Position numbers and translations under genes: made by a program | Shown: positions 15,979 through 34,649 of the stretch, piece after piece | How the letters are laid out: every line of letters begins with the position of its first letter | Numbering within the stretch: the stretch's first letter is position 1 | Virus record (IMG/VR): IMGVR_UViG_3300032249_000086 | Coordinates: 1-37,977 of that record | Length of the DNA: 37,977 nt | Direction: 5' to 3' (one strand) | Source: a virus | The notes under the pieces: generated by a model | Databases searched by the model: none | Told to the model about the DNA's origin: nothing | Seen by the model: the letters and a program-made list of their open reading frames with translations, nothing else

Positions 15979-16416
15979 CTATAGCCCATTTTCTGCCATG
16001 ACATAGGGGTAGTCTTCCCTTTTATAATCCTTTACTGGTATAGCGTAATGACGGTATATACCACGCTGTTCTAGCCCTGTTTTAATGCTGTGGCATGGTT
16101 GGCATAGGGATTGAAAGATATTGCGCTGGAAGGCTTCTGAGCCGTAGTGCGCCCAAGGGAATACATGGTCTATATGTATCGCCTGTACTATGCGCCCATC
16201 ACTTAAACAACTGAGGCATAGTGGGTGCTTAGATAGCTGTATGTGTCTTAGCTTGCGCCATTGGCTAGTATTATATTTAGCTAATGCATCTATGCGTTTG
16301 TCAGTATGGTTATAACTATTACGACCACCATGTTCTAAGCATAATGTGTTGTACTTAGTGCGTAGGTTACTGCACCCAAGCATACTGCACTTAGTATTAC
16401 TGGGTACAGTAGGCAT
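15979..16416 (-). CDS. HNH endonuclease, packaging-associated
   Basis: A 145-residue protein with an N-terminal zinc-ribbon-like part (CSMLGC, then LCLEHGGR) and a C-terminal HNH nuclease: HPLCLSCL, IHIDHVFPW (the first His-Asp pair), then NIFQSLCQPCHSIKT, with paired CxxC zinc ligands. Genes of this type next to terminase genes of HK97-like phages help the terminase nick the cos site. Its location 130 bases before the small terminase gene fits that function. It follows the DUF5856-like gene by 3 bases. A free-standing homing nuclease is a less likely alternative. Confidence 0.88.
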   Translation of the reverse strand: MPTVPSNTKCSMLGCSNLRTKYNTLCLEHGGRNSYNHTDKRIDALAKYNTSQWRKLRHIQLSKHPLCLSCLSDGRIVQAIHIDHVFPWAHYGSEAFQRNIFQSLCQPCHSIKTGLEQRGIYRHYAIPVKDYKREDYPYVMAENGL

Positions 16417-16419
16417 ACA

Positions 16420-16785
16420 TTAACGCAAGAAGATTAGCTTATAGAGTGTGCTGTCTATAAGAGTGACTATGTTATCTACTTCGTTTTGTATGTTGCTGTC
16501 TTGCGGTAACTCTGCCCTAGCTTCTGTTACATATTGTTTCAGGCTTGCCATGTAGTCTACTGGGTCAATGCTTACAGTAGTATATGTATTAGGGTAGTCT
16601 TTAATTAATTCTCCTGTACTGCCTTGTATAGATTCAGCTACAGCATCAATTAATTCTACAATGCTATCATAGTAAGTAGCTAATGCTATGTGTTTAGCGT
16701 AACTGCCTTCACCTTCTACTCTAAAGTGCATTATGTGAGCTACTGTTGCGCTATGTAATAGATTGCCAATAAATTTACCGTACAT
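16420..16785 (-). CDS. DUF5856-like helical protein
   Basis: A 121-residue helical protein starting MYGKFIGNLLHSATVAHIMH, which resembles the phage DUF5856 family (ferritin-like/Dps-like helical pattern, histidines at about 11, 17 and 20, with KHIALATYYDSIVELIDAVAE following). I chose ATG 16785 because the family start matches it, it has an AAGGAATAAT ribosome site, and it sits 1 base after the IbrB-like stop; a frame extension of 12 residues upstream has no such support. Function unknown; the spaced His and Glu residues hint at metal binding. It closes the accessory cassette. Confidence 0.7.
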   Translation of the reverse strand: MYGKFIGNLLHSATVAHIMHFRVEGEGSYAKHIALATYYDSIVELIDAVAESIQGSTGELIKDYPNTYTTVSIDPVDYMASLKQYVTEARAELPQDSNIQNEVDNIVTLIDSTLYKLIFLR

Positions 16786-16786
16786 A

Positions 16787-17305
16787 TTATTCCTTTGCTT
16801 TAGGTTTCCAGCTATCGCCAAATGCTTCTTTCTTACGCCCTGCTTGTGTAGGCATACCTGCTCTGTCTACCAGCCTGTCTACTTCTTCATCTTCCATACC
16901 TAAACGGGCTTGTATTTCTTCTTTACTAACGCCTTCGTCTACTATGCCACGCACAATATTAGCCATAGATAAAATGCCATGCGTACCTCTAGCACGATTA
17001 TGTCGTATGGTACTCATCTGCCTATGTACTGGGTCAATGTCTACTGTGACTGTAGGGACCATTCCATTAAACCGTTCCATTAATTTTTTTTGCCCACTAA
17101 CGGTATATCTATGAAAGCCATCCACAATAGTATTATCAGGAAGAATAACAATAGGTTGTGTCCAGCCATCCTCAATAATAGATGTAACTAATAACTCCAT
17201 CTCAGGCGGGGCTACCTTATTAGGATTGTAGTCATTAGGTTTTAAATCTTTTCTATCTTTCCAAACTACTTTGCTAATTGGTTGTGTCTTAATATCGTGA
17301 GCCAT
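16787..17305 (-). CDS. IbrB-like ParB/Srx-domain protein
   Basis: A 172-residue protein with a ParB/sulfiredoxin-like fold: LKPNDYNPNKVAPPEMELL (box I region), a conserved IVDGFHRYTVSG (61-71) in the nucleotide-binding position, then TIRHNRARGTHG and a helical C-terminus with an HTH-like segment (SKEEIQARLGMEDEEVDRLV). Together with the PAPS-reductase-family gene just upstream (17-base overlap) this is the IbrA-IbrB pair known from E. coli, where it activates eib prophage genes. It probably binds nucleotide and/or DNA. Start ATG 17305 has a GAGGAATCGG ribosome site. Confidence 0.85.
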   Translation of the reverse strand: MAHDIKTQPISKVVWKDRKDLKPNDYNPNKVAPPEMELLVTSIIEDGWTQPIVILPDNTIVDGFHRYTVSGQKKLMERFNGMVPTVTVDIDPVHRQMSTIRHNRARGTHGILSMANIVRGIVDEGVSKEEIQARLGMEDEEVDRLVDRAGMPTQAGRKKEAFGDSWKPKAKE

Positions 17306-18476
17306 AATCCGATTCCTCTATATCTTCCATTGTTACGCCTATCTTATCTCTAGCCAAACTAGCATTAGCGTTGACTTGCCCTTTTCTTCTTTCTTTTAAA
17401 TCACCACGATTAGCAATCATAGCTAGAAATTTCCAGCTAAGACCAGTAATTAAATCAGGCTCTGTTTCATGCAACGGTCTATTAGTCTTAGATTTATGCT
17501 GTGCTAATAAATTTACTATGTTATTTGCGACTAATCCTTTTAGGTCTTTAGGGTATAGCTCTAATAATGCGTAAGTCCATTCTTTCCATGTCATGCCTTC
17601 AGGTAATACCATCTTGCCAAAGCCATACAGCTCAGTATTAGCGTATCTGCCAGCAGTAGCCGCCCCATGCACACGATTAATCATCTTGTGCCACATATGA
17701 GGCCATCCCTGTGCATAAATCCATAAGCCGCCAAGAGGTTCTTCTCCATATGGAGGGCATACCCGTTGCGTACTAGGTGCTACGCCCATCATACTCATAA
17801 TGTCATACGACCTGTTGTAATCCCAACCAAACAATCTAGGCGCAGTCCATACATCAAAAGTAGTCCAATCGTATATAGGGCTTGTAGGGTAGTTGTGTCC
17901 GTTTCTAGGTCCACCTATCCAATTTAATTTGGTTTTTTGCGCTACGCTACGATACCGCCGCAATGATTCATCTGCTCTAATACCTCTTACATCTGCAACT
18001 GTGCCGTGTTCAGGTCCATAAACATAGTGTGCAATATCAGGAACGCTATCGCCCCATTTAAACTCTTTAAGTTCAGTAACTACATTAGGGTTGTCAGGCA
18101 TATCTCTTACCCATAAGTCTTTTTTGGCTGGGTCCCAACATTGCCAATACGGTTCTTTGCGACTGCAAGCATTCCTATGTCTAATAGGAATACATAACCA
18201 TTTAAGCCGTACTTCAGGCATAAGGCGTACACGCTCAACATAGTCTATGGTGTCAGGATGTATAGCTTCCTCATCCCAAAAATAAACATCAAGCGGCAGT
18301 TTGTTTTTTTTCTTTGCTACTTCTAAAGCAAGGTTTAGGCAGACAGTAGAATCTTTGCCACCACTAAAAGAAACAACTACTTTGTCAAAATTATCAAACA
18401 AATATTCAAAGCGTTCTATAGCGGCATCATAAACATTAACGCCTTCTACTACTTCTTTTTTAAGGATTCTGCCCAT
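17289..18476 (-). CDS. IbrA-like PAPS reductase-family protein (DUF3440)
   Basis: A 395-residue protein with the PP-loop of the adenine nucleotide alpha hydrolase fold, VVVSFSGGKDSTVCLNLA (SGGKDS at 38-43), then YFWDEEAIHPDT, an RGIRADESLRRY segment and YPTSPIYDWTTFDVW, all as in PAPS reductase / DndC-like proteins. The C-terminal part (GLWIYAQGWPHMWHKMINRVHG and following) matches the DUF3440 extension of IbrA. It probably activates or transfers sulfur or adenylates a substrate; a classic CysH role is doubtful as the catalytic C-terminal ECG motif of CysH is not seen. It overlaps the Bug gene upstream and the IbrB-like gene downstream by 17 bases each. Confidence 0.88.
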   Translation of the reverse strand: MGRILKKEVVEGVNVYDAAIERFEYLFDNFDKVVVSFSGGKDSTVCLNLALEVAKKKNKLPLDVYFWDEEAIHPDTIDYVERVRLMPEVRLKWLCIPIRHRNACSRKEPYWQCWDPAKKDLWVRDMPDNPNVVTELKEFKWGDSVPDIAHYVYGPEHGTVADVRGIRADESLRRYRSVAQKTKLNWIGGPRNGHNYPTSPIYDWTTFDVWTAPRLFGWDYNRSYDIMSMMGVAPSTQRVCPPYGEEPLGGLWIYAQGWPHMWHKMINRVHGAATAGRYANTELYGFGKMVLPEGMTWKEWTYALLELYPKDLKGLVANNIVNLLAQHKSKTNRPLHETEPDLITGLSWKFLAMIANRGDLKERRKGQVNANASLARDKIGVTMEDIEESDYGSRY

Positions 18477-19329
18477 CTTTTGCGCCTTTTATTGTCCTGT
18501 CTATTGGTCTATATCTGTCTTGTTCTTGTTTTACAAAATTAGCAAATTGTTTCCTGCTCATAATATTTATGTTGTAGCCTTGTTTTTTCATCCACTCAAC
18601 AGTCTCAGGTTGCTTTAGGATTTTTACAAACTCTGTGTGCCACATATCTAATAATTTAGGGTCTGTGCCTTTAGGCGCAAACACTCCCCACCATAAATCG
18701 TCTTGTGTATTAGTAGGAATAATTTTTATGCGGTCAGAAGTAATCCATTGATTGACTACTGGAGCAGGTGAGTATGCAATGCTAGTTTCATTTGTTACTA
18801 CAGATTGCAATGCAGGTGCGCCACCTTTATAAGGTACATGAATTGTCATATATCCTTTTAGTGTCTGCGCCATCATAATATCTGCTACGCTACCAATGCC
18901 ATCTGATGCGTAAGTAATAATATTATTTTTTGCGTAATCCTTTAGCTCTGCAACTGTATTAGGCGGAAATGCTTTATTAGCAACTAACATCTCTTTTGCT
19001 GTTGCGACTAATACTACTGGCTCTACATCCCAATTAGTCTTTACTTTAGGTGTTAAATATTGCCCTACATCAATAGCTTGCGGCGTTACATGACCCATCA
19101 TTAGCGTTCTGCCATCAGGTGCAGATTTAGCTACTATGTCAGTCCCAATCATGCCTGATGCACCAGCTTTATTTTCTACATAAAATTTACCCTGCATTTT
19201 ATTTTCAAAATACCGAGTAACAATATCTGTGCCGCCGCCTACTGGATAAGCTACTACCATCTTGACGGGCTTCTGTGCTTGCACATTTAAAGAAGCCAAC
19301 ATAATTAAAGCTAACGCATATCTACGCAT
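18460..19329 (-). CDS. Bug/TctC-family tripartite tricarboxylate solute-binding protein
   Basis: A 289-residue protein with a signal peptide (MRRYALALIMLASLNVQAQ, cleavage probably after QA) followed by the family's core: VAYPVGGGTDIVTRYF, FYVENKAGASGMIGTDIVAKSAPDGRTLMMGH, and MTIHVPYKGGAPALQ, which form the carboxylate-binding loops. Family members bind carboxylates or similar small molecules in the periplasm for TctAB transporters or for sensing. It is slightly shorter than the usual about 320 residues but has no broken region. No TctA or TctB gene is in the phage. It overlaps the ParB-domain gene by 8 bases and the IbrA-like gene by 17, so it is a settled member of this operon, not a stray insert. 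Its codon choice by eye matches its AT-rich neighbours. Confidence 0.93.
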   Translation of the reverse strand: MRRYALALIMLASLNVQAQKPVKMVVAYPVGGGTDIVTRYFENKMQGKFYVENKAGASGMIGTDIVAKSAPDGRTLMMGHVTPQAIDVGQYLTPKVKTNWDVEPVVLVATAKEMLVANKAFPPNTVAELKDYAKNNIITYASDGIGSVADIMMAQTLKGYMTIHVPYKGGAPALQSVVTNETSIAYSPAPVVNQWITSDRIKIIPTNTQDDLWWGVFAPKGTDPKLLDMWHTEFVKILKQPETVEWMKKQGYNINIMSRKQFANFVKQEQDRYRPIDRTIKGAKDGQNP

Positions 19330-19942
19330 CTAAATATTCCTTACAAATAACCCACATTGCTTGTCCGCTATTTTCAAGAGTGTGTTGCTCTTTGGCTTTG
19401 CGTAATGCCTTAAAAATTGTATCTCGCTGGTCATGCTCTAGCATTACTGATAATGGAAACATCTCTTGGTCAGGTCTGTCGCTAGTATCTACATCGTCAT
19501 CTATTCCAGCATCTGCCACCATAGCATCTAAGCGTTCTTGGTCTTTATCATCTGCCAGCCTAGCTAAATCACTTTCATTAAAGCCAAGCGTACTTAAATC
19601 TACATTACCATCCTGTAGGGCTCGCAATTCTAAATCCAGCATAGAAGTGTTCCAATGCGAATTAAGGGCAATTTTGTTATCTGCCAAGATGTACGCTTTC
19701 TTTTGTAGTTCGGTCAGGTGCGGCAACCTAATGCATGGTACATCTTTTAACTCTAGCTTCATAGCCGCATATAAGCGACCATGTCCAGCTATCAGAGTAT
19801 TATTTTCATCAATCAGTATTGGATTATTAAATCCATACTCTCTGATGCTTCCTGCTATCTGAGCAATCTGTTTATCGTCATGTTCTCTAGCGTTGTTTGC
19901 ATAAGGGATTAATTTATCTATCTTGACTTGTTCAATTTTCAT
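19322..19942 (-). CDS. ParB-domain protein (methylase-partner type)
   Basis: A 206-residue protein with a ParB N-terminal nuclease/CTPase-like domain: VKIDKLIPYANNAREHDDKQIAQIAGSI, then LIDENNTLIAGHGRLYAAMKL (box II-like GHGRLYAA at 53-60) and ILADNKIALNSHWN. This is the version usually fused to, or located beside, phage DNA methyltransferases, but no methyltransferase domain follows here; instead there is an acidic linker (DDDVDTSDRPDQE) and a short helical end. A role in nucleotide/DNA binding is likely. It overlaps the wHTH-like gene by 11 bases and the Bug gene by 8. Confidence 0.88.
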   Translation of the reverse strand: MKIEQVKIDKLIPYANNAREHDDKQIAQIAGSIREYGFNNPILIDENNTLIAGHGRLYAAMKLELKDVPCIRLPHLTELQKKAYILADNKIALNSHWNTSMLDLELRALQDGNVDLSTLGFNESDLARLADDKDQERLDAMVADAGIDDDVDTSDRPDQEMFPLSVMLEHDQRDTIFKALRKAKEQHTLENSGQAMWVICKEYLDA

Positions 19943-20183
19943 TTGTCTGCACCAATGGCAATTTTTCAGAGTGATATGTGTATGACCAAATTTCTTTGCG
20001 ACCTCTCGCTAAGTTACTTGGTACTTTTTGCCTTGTTACATAACGATTTTTCATCAGATAACAAAGAGCCATTGATATTTGGCTTGCTTTTAATTCAGGA
20101 TAGACTTCTTTAATTGCAGTAAGTGTTACTGGCTCAGTCTTTGTCTTTAATAGTGTGCGTAGTTTTGATGCGGCTTGTGTCAT
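19932..20183 (-). CDS. Small winged-helix-like DNA-binding protein (putative)
   Basis: An 83-residue basic protein with a pattern of helices and a wing: LRTLLKTKTEPVTLTAIKEVYPELKASQISMALCYLMKNRYVTRQKV, where the LTAIKEVYPELKASQISMAL part looks like an HTH and YVTRQKV...EIWSYTY like a wing. It is the first gene after a strong promoter, and a 10-bp inverted repeat flanks its start, so autoregulation of the cassette is possible. The call is by pattern only. Confidence 0.6.
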   Translation of the reverse strand: MTQAASKLRTLLKTKTEPVTLTAIKEVYPELKASQISMALCYLMKNRYVTRQKVPSNLARGRKEIWSYTYHSEKLPLVQTNEN

Positions 20184-21230: not shown

Positions 21231-21365
21231 TTATTTTATCCAATGAGCTAAGTTATAGCCCAATATTATTAAACCCATTATTGCTCCAAATGCTACGCCT
21301 ACTATTGCTACCGCTAACCACTCTACCCAATACGGTATTTGTTTGTCATCAAAAAAGAGCTTCAT
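21231..21365 (-). CDS. Small membrane protein, 44 residues
   Basis: Read from ATG 21365 to TAA 21231. The first 16 residues are polar and aromatic (KLFFDDKQIPYWVEW); residues about 17-38 form one hydrophobic helix (LAVAIVGVAFGAIMGLIILGY). The ribosome site CGAAAGGAA lies within the end of the cyclotransferase-like gene, which it overlaps by 17 bases. Function unknown; a single-span inner-membrane peptide is likely. Confidence 0.65.
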   Translation of the reverse strand: MKLFFDDKQIPYWVEWLAVAIVGVAFGAIMGLIILGYNLAHWIK

Positions 21366-21792
21366 TTGTATTCCTTTCGTATGCATCTTTTGTGAACTTT
21401 AATGCTTCTTCTAAAAACAAAGTATTAATATTGCAGTCTAAATAACCTTGTTTAATAGCGTTGTAATAACTGTGCGTAGGTGCAGAATAGCCGTCATAGT
21501 TCATAAAATATATAAATGCTTTTTTATATTTATGTTTAACTTTAACTTCTGTAATACCTCTGCCGTAATGATGTGGATAACCTTCGTACATATCTAGGGC
21601 TTGTAAGCAATCCTGAGTTATGGTCCACAAGCCGATTGGTACTACGCTACCCTTACTAAATTCAATGTCAGCTACGCCTCTAAAAACAAGCCTGTAGTTA
21701 AGTAATTGTCCTATGCCAACAAATTTAGCTTTAGGGCAACGCCTAGACATTTGGTCATGGTTAAGATTACTGCCGTATGCCGCATACAACAT
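21349..21792 (-). CDS. Gamma-glutamylcyclotransferase-like protein (GGCT/AIG2 fold)
   Basis: A 147-residue protein starting MLYAAYGSNLNHDQMSRRCP, the family signature (YGSN at 6-9 forms the gamma-glutamyl-binding loop). A glutamate in MYEGYP (Glu70) is at the place of the catalytic acid, and FIYFMNYDG follows as in the family. It would cyclise gamma-glutamyl groups, releasing 5-oxoproline, or reshape a related bond. I use ATG 21792 (ribosome site CGAAAGGAAATTAAT) instead of a longer frame starting at 21867 whose extra residues overlap the upstream gene. It pairs in the operon with an amidoligase-like gene. Confidence 0.88.
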   Translation of the reverse strand: MLYAAYGSNLNHDQMSRRCPKAKFVGIGQLLNYRLVFRGVADIEFSKGSVVPIGLWTITQDCLQALDMYEGYPHHYGRGITEVKVKHKYKKAFIYFMNYDGYSAPTHSYYNAIKQGYLDCNINTLFLEEALKFTKDAYERNTNEALF

Positions 21793-21793
21793 A

Positions 21794-21949
21794 TTAATTT
21801 CCTTTCGTTTTGTAAATTTCAATAACATCTGATGCTTTTTCTGCAATACGCAGAAACTCTCTTTCAAATCTTACAAAGTCAAATGGCTCTGCATTTTTGA
21901 ACATTTCTAATATTTCTGTCATTTGTTTGTTTGCTGTCATTAAGTCCAT
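21794..21949 (-). CDS. Hypothetical 51-residue helical protein
   Basis: Read from ATG 21949 (ribosome site CACGAAAGGAAAC) to TAA 21794, 1 base before the next start. The product is one or two charged helices (KQMTEILEMFKNAEPFDFVRF, then REFLRIAEKASDVIEIY) and ends TKGN, because the ribosome site of the next gene is encoded inside its last codons. A canonical extended -10 promoter lies just upstream. Confidence 0.7.
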   Translation of the reverse strand: MDLMTANKQMTEILEMFKNAEPFDFVRFEREFLRIAEKASDVIEIYKTKGN

Positions 21950-22248: not shown

Positions 22249-23058
22249 TTAAACTCCTTGTAATTGTGTTGCTCTTGCTTTGTAATACTGTGCTATTGCT
22301 GGTGTAATCTTGTTTCTGCGTACCATGCCAGCCAGCATTGTGTCGAGTGCTACCTTGGCTGTGTACTGCTCTTTAAATGCTTTAACTGCTGTATGGTCTT
22401 GCGCATCAGCTACCATGCCGAATGTCAAGCGGATGTAATTCTCTACTTTGTCTGCATCTGTTGTGCCGCTATGATGGCGAAACTCTACAGAACCCATACG
22501 AAAGAAGCTCTGCAAATTTAGTTTGAGGTAACGGGTAGAAAATAATTGTCCGAGTTGGCGTACTGTGCGAGTTTTGTCAATGTCGGAAAATAATACTTGT
22601 TGCGACTCTACTGATGTATTAGTCATGCTTCCGTAGAGTGAGCCGACATAACGATTTGCTTGGTTGCGGCGGCTTGCTGGTTGGATAGAATCCATGCCAG
22701 CCTCAAATTTTACAAAACGCTTAAACAAATTACGAAACTCTTTGATGCCCCAGTTAGAAACATTGTGATGAATGTGAAAGCCTGTAGACTGATTTACTTG
22801 TGCGCCGAGTGCTGTAATGATTTCGCATACTTGACGAATTGTTGCAATGCCAGCCTCGCCTTCTAGGATTGGGCTTACTACTTCAAAGCCGTCACGACCT
22901 TGGATTGAGCCATCAAATTTAATTTGAAACTTTGTGTAATCGCAACCGCTATAGTGTGAACGAATTGCTGGAATGCCAGCGTTGTTAAGAGCATCAACAA
23001 CTGTCTGCATTGGAACATTGAAGCACTCTAACTCTACACCAAATTTACCGTTAATCAT
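22249..23058 (-). CDS. Amidoligase-family (COOH-NH2 ligase) protein
   Basis: A 269-residue protein starting MINGKFGVELECFNV; the GVELEC strand (7-12) is the hallmark of the Amidoligase_2 / glutamine-synthetase-like ATP-dependent ligase family, with FDGSI...GFEVVSPILEG (metal and ATP ligands of the Exx-type) and GFHIHHNVS (His/Asn) following, then RYLKLNLQSF and VEFRHHSGTTDADKVENYIRL, the conserved late RxHxG.. part. It would join a carboxylate to an amine using ATP. I use ATG 23058 with the ribosome site CACGAAAGGGAG; an extension to 23112 is not supported. Neighbouring GGCT-like gene suggests gamma-glutamyl-type chemistry. Confidence 0.88.
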   Translation of the reverse strand: MINGKFGVELECFNVPMQTVVDALNNAGIPAIRSHYSGCDYTKFQIKFDGSIQGRDGFEVVSPILEGEAGIATIRQVCEIITALGAQVNQSTGFHIHHNVSNWGIKEFRNLFKRFVKFEAGMDSIQPASRRNQANRYVGSLYGSMTNTSVESQQVLFSDIDKTRTVRQLGQLFSTRYLKLNLQSFFRMGSVEFRHHSGTTDADKVENYIRLTFGMVADAQDHTAVKAFKEQYTAKVALDTMLAGMVRRNKITPAIAQYYKARATQLQGV

Positions 23059-23103
23059 TTTTAACTCCCTTTCGTGTTGGGGCTTTCGTCTGCCCATGTA
23101 GAT

Positions 23104-23131
23104 ATAATACATGAAAATAATACTTATGCAA
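23104..23131 (-). promoter_or_regulatory. Possible promoter before the amidoligase-like gene
   Basis: On the minus strand TTGCAT (23131-23126) and TATTAT (23109-23104) are 16 bases apart. The -10 is good (five of six) and the -35 poor (three of six). It is in the right place, about 46 bases before the start codon. The AATACTTATG element found near 21977 also occurs here in the opposite direction (23119-23128). Confidence 0.35.
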
Positions 23132-28169: not shown

Positions 28170-28285
28170 GTTTCACTATTTATACACACGATGGGTATAA
28201 ATTTATCCAATACTTTTTTAGTATGGATGAGCTTATTAAATCAATGTTAAAGAACCCTAAAGACAGTTACCATCGCAATCTATAG
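28166..28285 (+). CDS. Hypothetical 39-residue protein, last gene of the right operon
   Basis: Begins with ATG 28166 overlapping the previous stop (ATGA) and ends with TAG 28283-28285. The peptide SFTIYTHDGYKFIQYFFSMDELIKSMLKN has an FIQYF...MDELIK pattern of a small beta-alpha unit. It runs 6 bases into the end of the convergent SprT-like gene, so the two opposing operons meet without a terminator in between. Confidence 0.6.
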   Translation: MSFTIYTHDGYKFIQYFFSMDELIKSMLKNPKDSYHRNL

Positions 28286-28633
28286 TTCCAAAGGGTCAAA
28301 GCCTAATTCTGTTGCTACCATCTTGCAACGGGTTCTAAAAGGTTTTCCATGTTGCAACCACTTATCGCCTTTTTGTTTGTAAAAACTCATGTGTACGCAT
28401 TCATGAGCAAGTGTAGTTAGAACAGTATAGAAGTGACTACAACGCCCTGACGATATAGTAATAGTATGTTCATAATCACCACCCGTATCTAACAAATATG
28501 TTCCCATCACTTCTGTATCAGGAGTAACAATAAATTCTATTTGTTCAGGCAACGGCATATCCCACTTAGTAAATGGATAAGTGCAATATAAAGTGGAATA
28601 CAAATTCTGTAAGATTTCAGGCGTTAATCTCAT
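28280..28633 (-). CDS. SprT-like metallopeptidase
   Basis: A 117-residue SprT-like zinc peptidase: LAHECVHMSFY gives the HExxH motif (His77, Glu78, His81) and GKPFR preceded by His95 supplies the third ligand region, as in SprT/Spartan proteins, which digest proteins stuck to DNA. A structural zinc-ribbon is missing, so it is a minimal version. It is the last gene of the leftward late operon and shares its ATG with the stop of the phosphoesterase gene. Role in the phage not known. Confidence 0.85.
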   Translation of the reverse strand: MRLTPEILQNLYSTLYCTYPFTKWDMPLPEQIEFIVTPDTEVMGTYLLDTGGDYEHTITISSGRCSHFYTVLTTLAHECVHMSFYKQKGDKWLQHGKPFRTRCKMVATELGFDPLEL

Positions 28634-31162: not shown

Positions 31163-32206
31163 TCACGCCATGTAATAGTCGAGGTTAGAAATAAGCCTTT
31201 GGTTGTCAGGCTCTAGGTCTACTGCTATCTTGCCGTGTTTTATAGAATCGGTTTTATTACCTAGATGATACGCTGATATAGATAATAAATCATGCGGTAA
31301 AAAACCCCATACTTCAGGATTCATTGTATATACAAGTGCTTTATCTTTAATTTCTAATGCACGCTTGCATGAATCATAACATTCTTGCCATTGTTGTTTA
31401 GCGTAGCAAGATTGTGCAAGCTCTACCCAAGGCTCTCTAGTATTAGGTGCTTCTGCACACGCTTTTCTAAACCATTCTCTGCCGTCTTGACCTAAAGCAT
31501 CATAAGTCTTGCCAAGCAAACGCATGGCGTAGCAACGCTCATTTTGCCAAGTAGCTTCGGGCATTTCTAAATATTTATTAAGGGCAACAATAGCATCTAA
31601 ATGCTTGTTATAAAAAGTAAGTTCACGGGCGTAATAAAAAGCGTTTCTCGGACAACGGGGGTCTTCTTTGATTGAAACTTCTAATAAATCAAGATATTGT
31701 CCACGGCTTTTAGTAGGGTCAGGTTTATGTACCACCAATAATTTATCAGTATGCGCCCATACTTCATTAGTCCGAATATCAGGAACGGGATACTCATGAC
31801 AAGGATGATGCCAATGGTAACCTTTTCTGTGATGTATTTTTTCATAAAAAAATGCAATCCCTTGCCCCCAATCAAATTTGTATCTAAGGCGAGTAGTATT
31901 TTCTTGCCATACACGCTCAATTTCCTCACGCCAGCCTTCTTGTAATTCTTCATCAAGGTCTAGGCTAATACAAACATCTATGTCCGCAGGTAATAAGCAG
32001 AGAGCAACATCCCTAGCAATATCAAAACGCCAAGGACTGACCACAATATTATGAGTAATCGCCCCATATTTTTTAGCTTCCTCTACCGTATTATCTGTAG
32101 AGCCTGTGTCCGCTATTAGTACCATATCGGCATCTTTAGCGGATTGACAGAATCGCTCTACAAATTGTTCCTCGTTTTTTGATATTGCGTAAACTGCTAT
32201 TTTCAT
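31163..32206 (-). CDS. Family 2 glycosyltransferase with TPR-like C-terminus
   Basis: A 347-residue protein. GT-A domain: MKIAVYAISKNEEQFVERFC, LIADTGSTDNTVEEA (33-43) and SLDLDEELQ (metal-binding DLD at 83-85) are typical of family 2 transferases using nucleotide sugars. The C-terminal half (from about 190) has TPR-like repeats (FYYARELTFYNKHLDAIVALNKYLE, then LAQSCYAKQQWQECYDSCKRALE), common in protein-O-glycosylating enzymes. It starts 16 bases after the collagen-like fibre gene, so that fibre, or the host surface, is the likely acceptor; this is an inference. Confidence 0.88.
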   Translation of the reverse strand: MKIAVYAISKNEEQFVERFCQSAKDADMVLIADTGSTDNTVEEAKKYGAITHNIVVSPWRFDIARDVALCLLPADIDVCISLDLDEELQEGWREEIERVWQENTTRLRYKFDWGQGIAFFYEKIHHRKGYHWHHPCHEYPVPDIRTNEVWAHTDKLLVVHKPDPTKSRGQYLDLLEVSIKEDPRCPRNAFYYARELTFYNKHLDAIVALNKYLEMPEATWQNERCYAMRLLGKTYDALGQDGREWFRKACAEAPNTREPWVELAQSCYAKQQWQECYDSCKRALEIKDKALVYTMNPEVWGFLPHDLLSISAYHLGNKTDSIKHGKIAVDLEPDNQRLISNLDYYMA

Positions 32207-32222
32207 GTCTTATCCTGTTACA

Positions 32223-34649
32223 TTAAATTGTATAAACTGCTTCTACTCTTGTGTTAATAGGCAAGCCTGATGCAAATACAATAGTTGTTCCGTTTGAAAC
32301 AGTTACATCTGAACCGCCAACCATTTCTATTCCATTACAAAACACCATTATTTTATTTGCTGTGTAAGTAGTAGATGTTGTAAATGTTGTTTGAGATGCT
32401 GTGGCAGTAAATGTATCGTAAATTGTCCTGCCTACAACAACGCCTAGCGATACTTGACTTGCATTAGATGCTGTGCCAGTTAATGCGGCAGTAATCGTGC
32501 CAGCAGTAAAGTTTCCGCTTCCATTTCGTTGCACTAATGCGTTTGCAGTATTAGTGGCTGCCGCAACTAATGATGTTCCCCATGCTGTGCCAGTAGACAC
32601 AGCAACGCCTGATGCTGGATATACAGTTGGTCCTGTAGGTCCAACGTCTCCTTGTGCGCCCTGAGGTCCTGTTGGTCCACCAACGCCTTGCACACCTTGA
32701 ATACCTTGGATTCCTTGAGGACCAGTAGGACCAGTAACCCCTTGTGCGCCCTGTGGTCCAGTAGGTCCAGCCGCTCCAGTATCTCCAATAGCACCAGTTG
32801 GTCCAGTCGGTCCAACAATACCCTGAATACCTTGTTCGCCTTGAATACCCTGCGGTCCAGTAGGTCCTGTTGGTCCAATAACGCCCTGTATTCCTTGAAT
32901 TCCCTGTGCGCCAGTCGGTCCAGTAGGTCCTACAACTCCTTGAATTCCTTGGTTGCCTTGTATACCCTGAATTCCCTGCGGTCCTGTTGGACCTTCAATA
33001 CCTTGAATGCCTTGTGAGCCTGTTGGTCCTGTAGGTCCGACAACTGTAGAATCTGCGCCTGTTGCACCTGTAGGTCCAGTAGGTCCAGCAATTCCTTGTG
33101 AACCAGTAGGTCCAACAATTCCTTGCAAACCTTGTTCACCTTGGATTCCTTGGATGCCTTGTGGTCCTGTAGGTCCAACATTGCCCTGTATACCTTGCGC
33201 TCCAGTAGGACCAACAACGCCTTGAATACCTTGAGCACCAGTTGGTCCTGTAGGACCAGTTATACCTGTGCTACCTTGTGGTCCAGTTGGTCCAAGCTGT
33301 GTATAGGTTACTTGTTGCGTAGTAACAATTACGGCTGGAGAAATTGGAGTTGTTGGGGTTGTGCCGCTTGCAATAGTTGTTAAAGAAACTGTTGTTGCTT
33401 CTGCTTGCCAATATAACTGAATATAATCTCCAGCGACTACTTCAAAAGTGTAATTACATACAGCAATAAAATTACCATCAAATCCAGCCCGTGAAGGTGT
33501 AATTGCAAATAATGATGCTGAATCGTTTATATCTGTGCCGTTTTTTCTTAACCAAACCCTTGCATCTACGACATCATTGTTAGTATTTACAATTTGTAAA
33601 GAATAAGTAAAGTTATACACGCCATTATGTGCGTATGTAATCCTGTTGCCGCTTACAACGCTTACGCCATTACTATCAGGGTCGGTAGTATTTAAATTAA
33701 CTGCATATGCAGTTGTGGTGCTTGCAATAGCTTGATTAGTGGTATCAATAAAACCGCCCCAATACGCAACCGTACCGCCTGTTCCAATAGGACCTTGTGC
33801 GCCCGTAGGACCAGTCGGACCAGTAATACTATTACCTTGTATACCTTGCAAGCCAGTAGGACCTGTTGGACCAGTAATACCCTGAATTCCTTGTGCGCCT
33901 GTCGGACCAACAAATCCTTGCGTACCCTGTATGCCTTGTGGACCAGTTGGACCTTCTGCTCCTTGGATGCCTTGATTACCTTGTGCTCCTGTAGGACCTA
34001 CTGCTCCAGTTGGACCAGCTACCGTAGAGCCAGCTCCAGTAGGACCAGTTGCTCCTGTATTTCCTTGTGCTCCTGTTGGACCTGTAGGACCTTGAAAACC
34101 TTGTACGCCTTGTTCACCTTGGATGCCCTGCACTCCTGTAGGACCAGTATTTCCCGTTGCGCCTGTAGGACCAGCAACAGTAGATGCAGAACCTGTTGCT
34201 CCTGTAGGACCAGTTGCACCCGTGTCACCTTGTATTCCCTGTATTCCCTGAATACCTTGTACGCCTGTAGGACCAGCGTTGCCTTGAATTCCCTGTGAAC
34301 CAGTAGGACCAGTTGGACCTTGCACAGTTGATGGCGCACCTGTAGGACCTGTAGGACCAACATTGCCTTGTGCGCCTTGAATACCTTGTGGACCAGTTGG
34401 ACCGTTAATACCTTGAACACCTTGTAAACCTGTTGGACCAGTAGCGCCTGTTGGACCAACGGCAGTAGATGCCGCACCTGTAGGACCAGTCGGACCTGTG
34501 TTGCCAGTCGGACCAGTAGTGCCAGCTACGCCTGTTGGACCTCTAGCTCCAGTTGGACCACCTGCTGTTCCTGCTGGACCAGTTGGACCAATAACACCTT
34601 GGTTAATCGTTAATGTAACTTGCTGTGCTTTGTCGTATTCAAATGGCAT
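32223..34649 (-). CDS. Collagen-like tail fibre with inner C1q-like domain
   Basis: An 808-residue fibre protein. Order: short N-terminal piece (1-20); first collagen block of G-P-T, G-P-Q, G-I-Q triplets (about 21-292); a C1q/TNF-like beta domain (about 293-452, with [12 protein letters not shown] and [10 protein letters not shown] and [11 protein letters not shown]); second collagen block (about 453-673); and a C-terminal adhesion-like part (674-808) with [13 protein letters not shown]. Such trimeric fibres are used in phage tails. Thr is strongly enriched in the Y position, as in glycosylated bacterial collagens such as BclA. The two blocks use different glycine codons. The sequence also creates spurious frames on the other strand. 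Confidence 0.93.
32636..33295 (-). repeat. Collagen triplet repeat block 2 (GGA-CC codon style)
   Basis: Tandem imperfect 9-base repeats coding G-x-y triplets (mostly GPT, GPQ, GIQ). Glycine before proline is mostly GGA here (GGACC), on the coding strand. It encodes fibre residues of about 453-673. Confidence 0.85.
33775..34590 (-). repeat. Collagen triplet repeat block 1 (GGT-CC codon style)
   Basis: Tandem imperfect 9-base repeats coding G-x-y triplets of fibre residues about 21-292. Glycine before proline is mostly GGT (GGTCC) here, unlike block 2. Confidence 0.85.

Follow-up and report, generated by a model that had tools for sequence, protein, structure and literature searches.

In Escherichia coli, IbrA and IbrB activate eib genes. 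Enzymes of the PP-loop type adenylate their substrate, which a nitrogen or sulfur nucleophile then attacks; nucleotides are bound by ParB/Srx domains. Relatives of IbrA are present in 215 cultured phage records and relatives of IbrB in 234, and IbrA/IbrB pairs are mentioned in a few papers (PMC4490671); in the open-access literature no paper was found that ties IbrA/IbrB to a slot filled by a cupin, a TctC protein or a symporter. For the Bug/TctC family a P-x-G-G-x-x-D-type ligand loop has been described (PMC8556258, PMC5812351).

The window, by which we mean the whole 37,977-base virus record analysed here, is a freshwater phage. Six open reading frames (orfs) run along its minus strand in the order wHTH, ParB, TctC (Bug), IbrA, IbrB and DUF5856, as the preliminary description had them (Table 1), and are followed by HNH, TerS and TerL. 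The first four junctions (wHTH/ParB, ParB/TctC, TctC/IbrA and IbrA/IbrB) are overlaps of 11, 8, 17 and 17 nt, which agrees with the range of 8–17 nt given earlier. A 1-base gap, also mentioned there, separates IbrB and DUF5856 if the latter is read from an internal ATG (16785), whereas with the TTG start as listed the two overlap by 35 nt. The promoter ahead of the run, previously called strong, is near-consensus and the best such site in the region, but matches of this kind are as a class no commoner than in shuffled sequences. All six genes are found together again in three relatives (L003, L004 and L006), and since the whole set recurs, the run is beyond chance; the refuting case named in the preliminary description, that the six would never be met together in other genomes, does not hold. 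The proposal of a six-gene unit survives in part: ParB-X-IbrA-IbrB, X being the slot that TctC fills in the window, is co-inherited, whereas wHTH and DUF5856 are neighbours.

Table 1. Features of the six-gene run and its flanks in the window (all on the minus strand).
Feature	Coordinates	Strand	Remarks
Promoter-like site TTGACA-16-TATGAT, ahead of the run	20240-20213	-	11/12 consensus bases
Small protein read as wHTH, start of the run	19932-20183	-	No Pfam, PHROG, NCBIfam or PADLOC match
ParB, stand-alone ParB/Srx-type, first core gene	19322-19942	-	phrog_620, PADLOC MTase_II; kept in cassettes
Slot gene X, a TctC/Bug-type solute-binding protein	18460-19329	-	PF03401; signal peptide MRRYALALIMLASLNVQA-Q
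IbrA-type PP-loop enzyme	17289-18476	-	SGGKDS; PAPS reductase domain and DUF3440
IbrB-type ParB/Srx protein	16787-17305	-	phrog_2159, 209 bits
DUF5856 protein, non-core neighbour	16420-16821	-	PF19174, 70.2 bits
HNH endonuclease, opens the packaging block	15979-16416	-	PF01844

Elsewhere in the window, a GGACT/AIG2-like protein (21349-21867) and an amidoligase (22249-23112) lie upstream of a DUF932 gene, a set that recurs in relatives, sometimes on the opposite strand; a glycosyltransferase-2/TPR protein adjoins a collagen-repeat tail fibre gene (31163-32206 and 32223-34649), and a candidate SprT-like metalloprotease (28280-28633) scores slightly under the Pfam cut-off.

ParB and IbrB score 25.5 and 18.4 bits with ParB_N, below its cut-off of 26.3, and PHROG backs both identities strongly (183 bits with phrog_620 for ParB; Table 1 for IbrB). 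The stand-alone ParB also matches the ParB portion found at the N-terminus of phage fusions between ParB and a methyltransferase (PADLOC MTase_II, 123.6 bits; phrog_498, 168.5 bits), a likeness that points to DNA modification. IbrA has Pfam scores of 44.4 with PAPS_reduct and 59 with DUF3440, and is followed by an IbrB-type ParB, so that the two genes qualify as an IbrA/IbrB pair; the DGFHR and RHNRARGTH motifs are invariant in the IbrB alignment.

Scans with IbrA and IbrB returned more than 200 viral loci, from which duplicates were then removed. The conserved core is ParB-X-IbrA-IbrB, which is smaller than the six genes and far wider in its spread, with about 100 distinct viral loci in a sample biased to the best-scoring IbrB relatives (one scan took the best 80 of more than 500 matches). 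With order counted over recognised genes alone, between which some loci have others, the full order was observed in a first set with a cupin as X in at least 52 loci, TctC in at least 6 (plus the window) and a Na+:solute symporter in at least 4; among the viral loci listed in this set, none has ParB and lacks X. A wider set adds at least 41 cupin loci and at least one symporter locus in the same order, together with at least 10 loci in which ParB and a cupin depart from the plain order (the cupin follows IbrB in nine, and one has a split IbrA match). Most of the remaining loci end at contig ends, and among the listed loci not so cut the exceptions are only L272, where IbrA is preceded by a further PP-loop enzyme and what is likely a glutamine amidotransferase of class II, and L316, with a membrane protein and then two ParB. 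The cassette often stands directly ahead of packaging genes. Many cultured phages, and genomes, have an IbrA-IbrB pair with no recognised X, so X is dispensable in some settings; the IbrA profile found no relatives among the genome contigs.

In L272 the protein at 700-1269 begins MCGIAG, has a weak GATase_6 match and lies between the PP-loop enzyme and IbrA, at the expected position of X; it is possibly an ammonia source. The L316 protein (2-772) is a multi-pass membrane protein without a family match, heading a cassette that has no cupin, TctC or symporter. Extra genes in some other loci encode a short-chain dehydrogenase or a second PP-loop enzyme, which is shorter and lies in or beside the cassette (L083:4047-4820, L116:1183-1887, L038:6837-7535 and L045:6374-7156). 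In Streptococcus phage D4276 (L049:2276-3511) and Pseudomonas phage Amjad_SA (L047:4691-6649), SNF2/DEAD-type helicase genes abut IbrA, with AcrIIA5 nearby in D4276.

The slot gene is nearly always a bicupin, with a minority of phages carrying either a Na+:solute symporter or, like the window and six of its relatives, TctC with a signal peptide, and no record examined, many of these being fragments, has two types. A cupin profile matched once in each of seven cupin records and found nothing in the window, five other TctC phage records and five symporter phage records; of 30 records, TctC was detected in the six TctC ones and in none of the 24 from other phages. In a tree built on IbrA joined to IbrB the TctC phages occupy three places (the window group, L015 and L081), each beside cupin phages, so that three changes are needed (bootstrap 5–95% range 3–3) and the starred branches force at least two. 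L343 has a symporter sharing 59–62% identity with the symporters of L034 and L038, yet the IbrA proteins of these two match its own at only 38%, and its nearest IbrA (52%) comes from a cupin phage; by these comparisons the symporter has entered at least two backbones. TctC and cupin genes of closely related phages also have the same start, an ATGNNTAR overlap with the ParB stop. From the tree placement of TctC, the symporter mismatch of L343 and the common overlap we conclude that the slot gene has been exchanged among phages as a unit, and the conclusion that unrelated small-molecule-handling genes have repeatedly replaced each other in one slot is well supported. The tie is more than positional, because cupins adjoin IbrA-IbrB in other positions in Endozoicomonas, Flavobacteriales and Gemmatimonadetes contigs, the order symporter, PP-loop, ParB, IbrA, IbrB occurs in an unannotated gut phage, and in Pseudoalteromonas phage XCL1123 a cupin of the ectoine-synthase type separates IbrA from IbrB (L044:3592-3984). 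As the preliminary description had it in essence, the PP-loop enzyme of IbrA type and the ParB-type proteins form a real co-inherited unit with a small-molecule-handling gene, but a periplasmic sensor is no general part of it, most phages filling the slot with a cupin that lacks an export signal, or with a symporter. A soluble cupin, a periplasmic binding protein and a symporter have no obvious single step in common.

TctC of the window scores 120.8 bits with PF03401 (cut-off 27). Among viral contigs a search with the single window protein returned nothing and an alignment query returned relatives; cultured phages gave one weak match (25% identity), in an unannotated gut scaffold. A signal peptide can be read in all TctC versions, the ligand loop is retained as Y-P-V-G-G-G-T-D, and the AF2 model (pLDDT 82.7) matches the closed, ligand-bound TBP structure 8hka (TMq 0.82). 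Values of dN/dS are about 0.1–0.2 in most TctC pairs and about 0.04–0.09 for IbrA and IbrB, rough figures since synonymous sites are near saturation, so that by this measure TctC evolves about 2–4 times faster than its neighbours; it is under purifying selection, and with its signal peptide, dN/dS, Bug fold and ligand loop it looks functional. All seven phage proteins fall in a single clade (support 100/100) that excludes every cellular Bug protein sampled. That phages took TctC from a host only recently was considered and rejected, since this clade sits on a long stem. A PTxxExG segment of about 25 residues is missing from the six close members and present in L081 and most cellular proteins. 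Between L015 and L002, TctC is 75% identical and IbrA also 75%; between the window and L002, IbrA is 92% identical and TctC only 67%, and these identities suggest a TctC that recombines separately from the genes around it.

The cupin occupant, modelled as a bicupin with pLDDT 92.2, has no PHROG family and no match in 50,697 phage records, and the plasmids gave one match (Paraburkholderia), beside which no IbrA or IbrB was recognised. Its closest folds belong to the ureidoglycine aminohydrolase family (1sfn, 1sef, 4e2q and 1rc6; Z 17.6–18.5), other families lying within 1–2 Z units. The conserved set H146, H148 and H190 appears to differ from the metal ligands of AllE.

By terminase, the nearest cultured phage is Methylophilaceae phage P19250A, with a TerL 70% identical to that of the window. 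The two phages have a collinear structural (head and tail) module, mostly at 53–71% protein identity, and in both DUF5856 and HNH homologues lie side by side upstream of the packaging genes; unlike the window, P19250A has no match for ParB, TctC, IbrA or IbrB, so the packaging-side neighbours are separable from the cassette. In L015 and L021 DUF5856 is placed upstream of ParB, and in L002 it was not detected. Given its relocation in the first two, its apparent absence from L002 and its place beside HNH in P19250A, we group it with HNH-TerS-TerL, and as a core part it was rejected. Rejected likewise was wHTH, which is confined to the nearest TctC relatives of the window and absent from the cupin cassettes.

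Docking of TctC to a host TctAB is a possibility; among the window orfs scanned, TctC is the only part of TctABC recognised, with neither TctA nor TctB. If the host is one of the Methylophilaceae this import route is doubtful, because P19250A infects that family and none of 39 genomes of probable members (0/39) has TctA or TctC. These genomes were taken as Methylophilaceae on the RuMP hexulose-phosphate synthase family, which exceeds its cut-off in 35 of the 39, mostly in two copies, and on their small size; the major head protein of the window was not found in them, which is uninformative. One TctC phage (L081) has 67% GC, an indication that TctC cassettes extend to hosts of very different kinds.

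That the module is co-inherited is well supported; as to its role, the reading we favour, with a probability of roughly 0.4, is that ParB-X-IbrA-IbrB acts as one functional module, likely in nucleotide or phage-DNA modification, with X providing or handling a small molecule that its chemistry requires. IbrA, as a PP-loop ATP pyrophosphatase, would activate a substrate with ATP, the two ParB/Srx-type proteins would bind nucleotide or DNA, and nucleotides or phage DNA would most likely be what is modified. A bicupin, the usual X, would act in the cytosol, the Na+:solute symporter of some phages would import the small molecule, and the exported TctC/Bug protein of the window would capture a solute, probably a carboxylate, in the periplasm. 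We infer the interchangeable function of X, the common small molecule and the DNA or nucleotide target alike; modification is favoured as the role because of the PP-loop and ParB/Srx chemistry, the ParB match to methyltransferase fusions and the proximity to packaging genes. Only tentatively do we extend this to an undescribed phage system in which IbrA/IbrB/ParB attaches or inserts a group derived from a small molecule, a need met interchangeably by bicupin, Na+ symporter or TctC. As IbrA/IbrB pairs are present in hundreds of phages, the swapping fourth gene would offer a direct handle on the substrate, since the ligand of TctC or the solute of the symporter may reveal the co-substrate of the module, and, if true, the swaps would add a rare example of a single viral operon in which non-homologous genes have replaced each other repeatedly.

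The faster evolution of TctC, and the common occurrence of IbrAB without X in cultured phages and genomes, would also fit a cargo site, in which TctC, cupin and symporter are independent genes of host fitness or metabolism lodged at a convenient transcribed position while IbrA/IbrB and ParB act alone. Few gene types, all related to small molecules, occupy about 100 loci, however, with only L272 and L316 different among the listed uncut loci; moreover, the cupin stays with IbrAB under a changed order and a symporter accompanies IbrAB in an unrelated gut phage, so we regard this as somewhat unlikely. Homology to IbrA/IbrB raises the question of whether the module instead activates host or prophage genes, as that pair does for eib, with X as a ligand-responsive sensor; TctC proteins can signal (for example BctC in Bordetella; PMC5812351) and the cupins match ligand-binding domains of the AraC type. 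In the window neither target genes nor a sensor kinase were recognised, a position ahead of packaging genes does not suit this role and a symporter would be an unusual sensor, and such reprogramming is in our view unlikely.

A sulfur modification of DNA, phosphorothioate or other, of the Dnd/Ssp type had been suggested by the pairing of a PAPS-reductase-like PP-loop enzyme with ParB-type partners, and weak DndC, SspD and BrxP matches do exist. The DndC equivalog TIGR03183, however, gives 16.5 bits against a cut-off of 290.4, and no desulfurase, DndB, DndD or DndE was seen among the orfs scanned, part of which were searched with the Dnd models; membership of the Dnd family is not supported, and this chemistry is very unlikely. 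To TctC as a periplasmic superinfection-exclusion or decoy protein, in the operon by chance, we give very little weight: it is exported, fast-evolving and sporadic, as such a protein might be, but its Bug motif and fold are retained and the cupin and symporter in the same slot are left unexplained.

Phage TctC has the fold, signal peptide and P-x-G-G-x-x-D-type loop of Bug/TctC proteins (BugD, Bug27, TphC and TBP), and differs from them in its phage-only clade, in the lack of PTxxExG in six of the seven proteins and in having no TctAB recognised nearby. The cupin occupant is 12–15% identical to the ureidoglycine aminohydrolase bicupins. Mycobacterium phage Obutu gp1-gp6 (ParB, two small genes, PAPS reductase, ParB and terminase) resemble the cassette in order, but genes for a cupin, TctC and a symporter are all lacking, and gp2 and gp3 are small proteins without an assigned kind. 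The IbrA/IbrB of E. coli and phages (PHROG 2302/2159, 'PAPS reductase' and 'ParB') are a homologous adjacent pair, as in the cassette, where IbrA is only 33% identical to the protein annotated as IbrA in Escherichia phage PhiR5_2 and the pair is preceded by a second ParB and the slot gene X.
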